From positions 1 through 26,781 of IMG/VR virus record IMGVR_UViG_3300008517_000125: 26,781 nucleotides of DNA, one strand, 5' to 3'. The notes beneath the pieces are model-generated. The model worked only from the letters and a program-made list of their open reading frames with translations. It did not search any database and was not told where the DNA came from. Shown here piece after piece: positions 2,618-19,212 of this stretch. The stretch's first letter is position 1; every line of letters begins with the position of its first letter. The translations under genes were made by a program, and so were the position numbers. The DNA comes from a virus.

Positions 2618-3082
2618 CTAGTTAACGGAGATGAAAACTTTAAATATGTTGCTTTCATGGCCTAACGAATCTTCTATTTGAAATTCTTCTCTATAACCCC
2701 CAATAGGGCCAGTGATTTCAAGTGGATCAATATTACAAAAAGTCATTTCCGCAGAAGATTGAGAGGGAAACAAAAATATAACAGGCCCAGAATAAATATC
2801 TTGGCTATCGGATGGATAATATTCAGTAACTAAAAGCGTTTCCATATCTAAATCAGGATCGGAGGCATAAACACAAAAATATGCAAGTTCACCAATATTG
2901 AAGGAATATTCTTCAAACCAATATTCATCATAGATTGTAACATCAATAATTTTAGGTGCAGTTTGTGGGGGACTTTGTGGGGGACTTTGTGGGGGGCTTT
3001 GTGGGGAGCTTCCTCCATCTCCACCTCCGCCACAACCATTAATAAAGAGGAAAATGATAGAAATTAATAATAGCTTTTTCAT
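2618..3082 (-). CDS. lipoprotein, probable lysogenic-conversion (moron) gene
   Basis: A 154-residue secreted lipoprotein. Residues 1-17 are a signal peptide (MKKLLLISIIFLFINGC) with the lipobox INGC at 14-17, so Cys17 would be lipidated. Then come a glycine-rich linker (GGGGDGGSS) and four tandem PPQS-like units, followed by a beta-rich domain of about 110 residues with two cysteines that could form a disulfide. The start follows GGAGG by eight bases. It is an isolated leftward gene beside the immunity region, the usual place for genes expressed from a prophage, such as surface exclusion lipoproteins. Function is inferred from place and signal only. Confidence 0.75.
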   Translation of the reverse strand: MKKLLLISIIFLFINGCGGGGDGGSSPQSPPQSPPQSPPQTAPKIIDVTIYDEYWFEEYSFNIGELAYFCVYASDPDLDMETLLVTEYYPSDSQDIYSGPVIFLFPSQSSAEMTFCNIDPLEITGPIGGYREEFQIEDSLGHESNIFKVFISVN

Positions 3083-3128
3083 TAAAAGCCTCCATTTAAA
3101 GGTGAATGATTGATAAACATTACCTTAT

Positions 3129-3201
3129 GTCCCACACAAGGAACTGGCACGGTACACATAACCGCCCGAACCTTACGGTTATCGGATTCCTTGTGTGAGA
3201 C
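3129..3201 (-). ncRNA. branched RNA element 1 of 3
   Basis: Read leftward, a 15-bp stem (GTCTCACACAAGGAA with TTCCTTGTGTGGGAC) closes a junction. Its one non-Watson-Crick pair is U-G leftward but C-A rightward, which favours a leftward RNA. Inside are a hairpin CCG..AACC-GTAA-GGTT..CGG with a GNRA-type loop (3169-3180) and a second hairpin CGGT/ACCG. An alternative ATAACCG/CGGTTAT pairing is also possible. Confidence 0.55.
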
Positions 3202-3209
3202 TTAATAAT

Positions 3210-3271
3210 AGGTGCAAGGCAACCAATTTCTTGGCTGGAGATAGCGTTATGACAACCCTCGCCTTGCACCT
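3210..3271 (-). ncRNA. branched RNA element 2 of 3
   Basis: A perfect 11-bp stem (AGGTGCAAGGC with GCCTTGCACCT) closes a junction holding a small GTT/AAC hairpin and, read leftward, a CCAA-GAAA-TTGG hairpin with a GNRA loop (3223-3234). Confidence 0.55.
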
Positions 3272-3276
3272 GAATC

Positions 3277-3347
3277 AGGGTATGGAACCGTCCAGTTTCC
3301 TGGTAAGGAATAGTGAGTATGGCTCCCACTACCGGCCCCATACCCCT
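3277..3347 (-). ncRNA. branched RNA element 3 of 3
   Basis: An 8-bp stem (GGGTATGG with CCATACCC) closes a junction holding a TAGTG/CACTA hairpin and, read leftward, a CCAG-GAAA-CTGG hairpin with a GNRA loop (3292-3303). Same order of parts as element 2 but different stem sequences. Confidence 0.5.
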
Positions 3348-3406
3348 TAATTGCATTAGATAGCACATTTCTCGATAAAGGAAAAAACTTTTTTTAGGAG
3401 ACCAGC

Positions 3407-3607
3407 ATGCCCCGAGACAACGGTAAAGAAGGTTTCACCGTCCATGCCGATGCTTGGCTTGTTACTGTCATTGACAGGGAAGCTGCCAGGCTCGACCTTA
3501 ATCGCTCTCAATTCTGTGTCCGGGCTATCAAAAAGTATATTGGATATCATCATGCCGATAGCGTTTGTAAATCATTATCCAAAAAATATGAAAGCAAGTC
3601 AAAATAG
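3407..3607 (+). CDS. ribbon-helix-helix-like regulator
   Basis: A 66-residue protein with an AGGAG site six bases before the ATG. The middle (GFTVHADAWLVTVIDREAAR, then LDLNRSQFCVRAIKKYI) fits a short beta strand followed by two helices with the LNRSQF turn seen in Arc/CopG-type ribbon-helix-helix DNA-binding proteins. The C-terminal tail is lysine- and serine-rich. It opens the rightward early operon, so a regulatory role is plausible. The fold assignment is from pattern only. Confidence 0.6.
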   Translation: MPRDNGKEGFTVHADAWLVTVIDREAARLDLNRSQFCVRAIKKYIGYHHADSVCKSLSKKYESKSK

Positions 3608-5587: not shown

Positions 5588-5652
5588 AAAAAAATCCCCC
5601 GATCTTACCTTTACTGAAGAGTAGGTCCATGACCTATTCTTAAGGTCGGGGG
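5588..5652 (-). terminator. branched terminator of leftward operon
   Basis: CCCCCGATCTTA and TAAGGTCGGGGG form a 12-bp stem with one wobble, around two small hairpins (ACT/AGT and AGGTC/GACCT). Read leftward the GC-rich stem is followed directly by A and seven T, the mark of an intrinsic terminator. It lies seven bases past the stop of the last leftward gene and between convergent operons. Confidence 0.65.
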
Positions 5653-5659
5653 GTAGGGG

Positions 5660-6034
5660 TTACTTTGTGGCTTTGGCTAGGGCTTGTTTGAGGTCTTTAA
5701 CGAATTTGCCTGTAACATGGATTTCAAGTATTTCATCATTGACATACACTTCACCCTCATCGCCACCAACCGCATAATCTATATATTGGCATAAATCAAC
5801 CAATTCCTCATGGCAGTTGCAGGCTTTGACGATGAATTGGCCGTCTTCTTCGCCCATTTCCATAAAACATATATCCTCATCTAATTCTTGCTCAATTTTC
5901 ATAAGGAGTAATTCAGGATTTTGAGCGTGTACCCAACATAAAACTATTTCATCATCGTTATTCATCAAAGCATGATAAGTCCCCGGTCCATTATCTGCTT
6001 TTTGCCATTTCCAGGGTAATGCTGTATGTTTCAT
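5660..6034 (-). CDS. phage protein with GQFIVKACNCHEELV motif
   Basis: A 124-residue protein starting MKHTALPWKW, with the segment GQFIVKACNCHEELVDLCQY that I know from many phage proteins that begin TPWxV and carry DAxFIVxACNxHxxLv. The C-terminal half differs from that common type and is acidic with a basic end. Function of the family is unknown. The ATG overlaps the stop of the upstream regulator (ATGA) and follows GGAGGGCGAGAG. Confidence 0.65.
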   Translation of the reverse strand: MKHTALPWKWQKADNGPGTYHALMNNDDEIVLCWVHAQNPELLLMKIEQELDEDICFMEMGEEDGQFIVKACNCHEELVDLCQYIDYAVGGDEGEVYVNDEILEIHVTGKFVKDLKQALAKATK

Positions 6035-19033: not shown

Positions 19034-19212
19034 AATATCAGACAATACAAGTAATTAGAGCATTCATCAGATCGCTAAGACAGTTAGCGGCTCTGTTGGA
19101 AAAAGCTCTAAAAGGGGAGAAAGTATGAGATAGAGTAACTAACATTTTGTAAGATCCACCTAACCACGGAACTAGCCCTCGTTAGATTCATTTCTAACGG
19201 GGGCTTTTTTAT
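19034..19212 (+). ncRNA. self-contained non-coding RNA with own promoter and terminator
   Basis: Starts at the promoter above and ends at the terminator 19174-19210. Inside, TTAGAGC/GCTCTAA (19055-19061 with 19105-19111) closes around a CGCTAA-GACAG-TTAGCG hairpin; GCTCT at 19091-19095 is an alternative partner. A two-codon frame ATG-AGA-TAG at 19125-19133 follows GGGGAG with five bases spacing. Three CTAAC segments could pair with GTTAG at 19181-19185, so it could also act as an attenuator for the GroES gene. Confidence 0.6.
19174..19210 (+). terminator. intrinsic terminator
   Basis: AGCCCTCGTTAG and CTAACGGGGGCT form a 12-bp stem with one U-G pair and an 8-base loop, directly followed by TTTTTT and ATTTT. 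The best intrinsic terminator in the window. Confidence 0.9.

Follow-up and report, generated by a model that had tools for sequence, protein, structure and literature searches.

Three tandem closed RNA elements upstream of a predicted viral lipoprotein gene, apparently a new and so far tiny family of leader RNA

Among phage leader structures and translational operators, those of the T4 gene 32 type are other RNA folds tied to a known protein. GNRA-loop three-way-junction aptamers of riboswitches, such as c-di-GMP-I, have a variable P1 and a conserved junction, and tandem arrangements of them are known. The put RNAs of HK022 (putL and putR) are cis-acting elements of ~70 nt, which are located in the leaders of the early operons downstream of the early promoters and need no phage protein (PMC9378689).

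The locus compared with these systems here lies in a 26.8-kb linear virus contig from IMG/VR (the whole analysed stretch of 26,781 nucleotides is referred to as the window), whose right side holds the terminase, portal and major-capsid module. The elements sit in a gap of 324 nt, flanked by a predicted lipoprotein gene (leftward, 2618-3082) and by a small rightward ORF (3407-3607), to which no PHROG or Pfam family was assigned by search. To the left of the gap every gene but one, an HTH gene, runs leftward as far as the end of the contig, and on the other side the genes run rightward; these orientations point to a divergent early control region. In the order of the leftward RNA, the features of the region are as follows:

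3355..3384, minus strand: weak promoter-like site TTTCCT-18-TCTAAT (8/12), the best candidate in the window
3277..3347, minus strand: E3 (class F2), 14-pair closing stem, hairpin with a 7-nt loop and CCAG-GAAA-CUGG hairpin; leads in the leftward RNA
3210..3271, minus strand: E2 (class F2), 11-pair closing stem, one weak hairpin and CCAA-GAAA-UUGG hairpin
3129..3201, minus strand: E1 (class F1), closing stem P1 of 16 pairs, hairpin P2 capped by GUAA and hairpin P3; conserved core GGAAUCC..CGUAAGGUU..GGGCGG..CCGNGC..GUUCC
3120-3368, minus strand: 82-aa ORF, open across all three elements
3083..3128, minus strand: remaining leader and GGAGG ribosome site of the lipoprotein gene, as read from the sequence
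2618..3082, minus strand: predicted lipoprotein gene (its ORF has a signal-like start and a GCGGGG stretch resembling a lipobox), nearest gene downstream of the elements

The promoter-like site, if used, would start the RNA right at the edge of E3; since 8/12 matches are common, it is not taken as evidence of function. The distance from the end of E1 to the ATG of the lipoprotein gene is 46 nt, that is to say, the unit is directly upstream of this gene on the same strand, which agrees with the position expected by the original prediction for a leader of the lipoprotein gene. The product of the gene has a weak PHROG match, to a family of unknown function. Directly after its lipobox-like region, four 12-base tandem repeats (2962-3009) encode a proline-rich (SPPQ) stretch. 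In addition, two divergent Cro/C1-type HTH genes, with ~20 bases between them, are located near the elements at 1952-2559.

The three elements measure 73, 62 and 71 bases with gaps of 8 and 5 bases, just as had been described, and the spacers are short and AU-rich. In the minus-strand folds, each of them has two inner hairpins enclosed by a long stem (16, 11 and 14 pairs), and the GNRA loops claimed for the leftward reading are present as GUAA, GAAA and GAAA. The idea that the stems differ in sequence and the layout is kept was right as regards two hairpins per closed stem; it did not hold for the order of the hairpins, the GNRA hairpin being the first in E1 and the second in E2 and E3. The leftward minimum-energy folds of E1, E2 and E3 reach -37.1, -27.7 and -37.2 kcal/mol, with z of about -5.6, -4.1 and -5.0 against dinucleotide-preserving shuffles, and the folds of the opposite strand are weaker (-28.7, -23.1 and -25.2 kcal/mol). 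The whole 219-nt unit, read leftward, folds at -103.2 kcal/mol (z -8.4, dinucleotide shuffles), which is 33.8 kcal/mol below its own shuffles, compared with a mean of -2.2 (sd 5.8) for the sampled 219-nt windows, and it is the strongest fold among the 219-nt windows sampled in the window. The choice of the leftward strand as the RNA, already made in the original prediction, is borne out by the G-U pairs, of which E1, E2 and E3 have 3, 2 and 5 on the minus strand against 0, 1 and 1 when the complement is folded. Other strong structures were also seen in the window: an inverted repeat in a noncoding gap at 262-342 (leftward z -4.4), for which no sequence relation was found in the relatives searched, and terminator-looking stem-loops at 5590-5660 (plus strand, z -4.5) and at 19174-19205 (followed by a T run).

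When relatives of the terminase were gathered and scanned for closed inverted repeats, a homologue of E1 was found in L020, a phage with a related capsid/terminase module. The element (L020:531-603) is 73 nt long and aligns with E1 without gaps, with a local alignment score of 42 against a maximum of 32 in 2000 shuffles, and the two have the following core in common: GGAAUCC..UAA.CGUAAGGUU..GG.CGG..CCG.GC..GUUCC. All 16 pairs of P1 are kept between them; in 9 of these both partners differ and in 1 a single partner, whereas sliding the partner by 1-3 columns gave 1-4 double changes as a control. Hardly any of the sequence in the 11 outer pairs of P1 is shared, yet each of them pairs, and the pairing of P2 is preserved through a change from C-G to U-G. 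The L020 element has 4 G-U pairs on its own strand and 0 on the complement. The covariation of class F1 is that of two sequences (E1 and L020), a number at which there is no R-scape-type statistic. In the open frame of the window, 18 of 24 codons are non-synonymous between E1 and L020 and 1 is synonymous, and since every P1 pair is nevertheless kept, it is the RNA structure, not a protein, that has been preserved. Moreover, when homologues of the window's early proteins were sought in L020's record and in other relatives, there were none, the exceptions being two late-early genes with matches elsewhere. The early proteins being unrelated between both phages, the E1 core appears to have been kept for itself. 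As far as comparison of sequences can tell, E1 is a covarying structured RNA, with compensatory changes in its closing stem. It had been proposed that selection acts on RNA shape and that covarying stems in homologues would support this, and for E1 the L020 element provides them.

E2 and E3 are collinear over their length, with a local score of 19 (shuffle p 0.03). In a hand-set register, both partners differ in 4 of the 10 pairs of their common closing stem and a single partner in 1, without loss of pairing; in the CCAn-GAAA-nUGG hairpin, whose register was likewise set by hand, 1 of 4 pairs is changed on both sides. These double changes would also suit selection on RNA shape, and on this alignment E2 and E3, designated class F2, resemble tandem duplicates that have diverged. 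By contrast, E1 has no detectable sequence similarity to E2 or E3 (p about 0.63), so the tandem is made up of two classes, and aligning all four elements as a single family gave no consensus structure. That is to say, the view of three elements of one kind survives for E2 and E3 and fails for E1. Each class is known from one pair, E1 with L020 (F1) and E2 with E3 (F2), and conservation is thinly sampled to that extent.

In L020, a sigma-70-like promoter-like site TTGACA-17-TTTAAT (11/12), of a quality that occurs in L020 at ~0.05 per kb per strand, ends at 486; it is followed by the element (531-603), by GGAGG at 611-615, which is 8 nt from the element, and by the TTG start of the replication-protein gene at 621, a choice of start made by inference. 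It is therefore very likely that the L020 element lies within a 5′ leader. In both phages the element is directly upstream of, and on the same strand as, a gene; these genes differ (lipoprotein and replication protein) and do not point to a regulated function in common.

As for known families, Rfam 15 gave no match in the whole window at gathering thresholds, and permissive thresholds brought up only noise in 3083-3406 and in L020 450-660, in line with the earlier statement that the elements match no known riboswitch or ribozyme. ARAGORN found 0 tRNA or tmRNA genes in the window, and direct DNA similarity to phage and plasmid records yielded no useful match. In pattern scans of 2.9 million viral contigs, L020's record was the only real match, and there was no third E1-type member, among the matches listed; L325 and L344 were rejected as E1-type members, their matches lying in coding regions and being due to chance. 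A covariance model (R1), which was built from two sequences and which more diverged members would escape, found no third E1-type member in the records of terminase and major-capsid relatives, in 27 genome loci or in roughly 1,500 bacterial genomes of several phyla. Profile and fuzzy-pattern searches for E1 and E2/E3 in about 3 Mb of sequence found none. Altogether, about 1,600 genomes or records were covered without a third E1-type member. The unit is real and appears to be a viral leader RNA, its family being new to the libraries searched and tiny so far. As a separate observation on terminase genes, that of L002 (635-3286) and the start of L003 contain an apparent intein, a long in-frame insertion ending ...FAGGIVHHN-T, and in L002 an HNH-like ORF lies antisense inside it; the window's own terminase is without this insertion.

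A leader that combines three closed junctions, variable stems and a conserved core is best understood as an element which acts in cis and which a factor recognises. With a probability of roughly 0.45, the 219-nt unit is a cis-acting folded 5′ leader of a leftward early transcript, controlling the output of the downstream early gene. The leftward RNA would fold during transcription into three closed three-way-junction elements in the order F2, F2, F1. In the long closing stems pairing alone would be needed, and the junction core of E1 would be held in sequence and may be recognised by a protein or by RNA polymerase itself. The leader, bound or merely folded, would then set the amount of the early gene product through translation start or mRNA survival. 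We infer here the transcription of the unit, the binding of a factor and the direction of the effect. Control of translation start or mRNA stability is given more weight than processed small RNAs, put-like antitermination, a DNA function or a riboswitch.

That the stems are processed, for example by RNase III, into products of 60-75 nt acting in trans on host or phage targets would suit the tRNA-like size of the elements, their separation as closed units by short spacers and the great stability of the stems; the single copy in L020, standing 8 nt from a ribosome site, fits a leader better, and we consider such processing unlikely. A decoy RNA, which the original prediction had mentioned, did not find support. 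Antitermination in the manner of HK022 put, in which the elements would bind RNA polymerase in cis and cause read-through of early-operon terminators, is unlikely. Put measures about 70 nt, does without a phage protein and lies downstream of an early promoter, features which speak for this reading, and the L020 element likewise follows a promoter-like site; but put is described as two side-by-side stem-loops and the elements here have a long closing helix, one put copy per operon stands against three elements of two classes, and the E1 and E2/E3 models gave only noise in the immunity region of HK022 (25500-31500), a record in which the put positions are unannotated. A bolder idea, that the two unrelated classes in tandem form one cis-acting machine which, with no phage protein involved and independently of put, modifies RNA polymerase or the ribosome, is regarded as distinctly unlikely.

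It is improbable that the palindromes act as DNA, be it as a replication origin, a recombination site or a cruciform. The L020 element stands directly before a replication gene, and the cumulative GC skew of the window is lowest near 4 kb, both of which would suit such a role; in L020's record, however, the skew minimum is elsewhere than the element, and the pairs preserved as G-U would read A-C on the opposite strand. A riboswitch or attenuator, with a ligand at the conserved junction choosing between P1 and a competing hairpin, is quite improbable. A conserved junction core with a freely varying P1 is typical of aptamers, and in the window there is an alternative hairpin, with a T-rich tail, into which the 3′ arm of P1 can fold (3123-3141); this hairpin is weak (-7.1 kcal/mol) beside a 16-pair P1 in an element of about -37 kcal/mol, by which the switch would be locked, and L020 has no terminator-like counterpart, so a switch is unlikely. 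Moreover, no Rfam class matches and the terminator count is no higher than chance. Very improbable indeed is the explanation of the repeats as by-products of the 82-aa ORF or of a general richness in palindromes. This ORF is open across all three elements, and the genomes taken as a whole show no excess of such branched inverted repeats (2234, against 2099 after shuffling); the codon comparison with L020 led to the rejection of protein coding for E1.

If the reading as a cis-acting leader is true, the unit would represent a new phage RNA family, the core of which survives while the neighbouring early proteins all turn over. Such survival suggests a recogniser common to both phages, perhaps a host factor. 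The unit also supplies a definite sequence model with which more sequence can be searched, as well as a compact object on which structure probing can be done.

Compared with the systems mentioned at the beginning, the elements share with HK022 put the size of ~70 nt and the phage origin, and also, as proposed here, the action in cis and the position in an early leader. They differ from it in being closed three-way junctions rather than two adjacent stem-loops, and the window, with its three tandem elements in two classes, has no sequence or model match to put. With aptamers of the c-di-GMP-I type they have in common a variable P1, a conserved junction, a GNRA-capped arm and a tandem arrangement; unlike these, they have no Rfam match and no convincing expression platform, and their P1 is very long. 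Like leaders of the T4 gene 32 type, they are 5′-leader structures which stand near the ribosome site of an early or replication gene, but they have no known binder, and they are branched and closed, arranged in tandem and provided with a conserved core.
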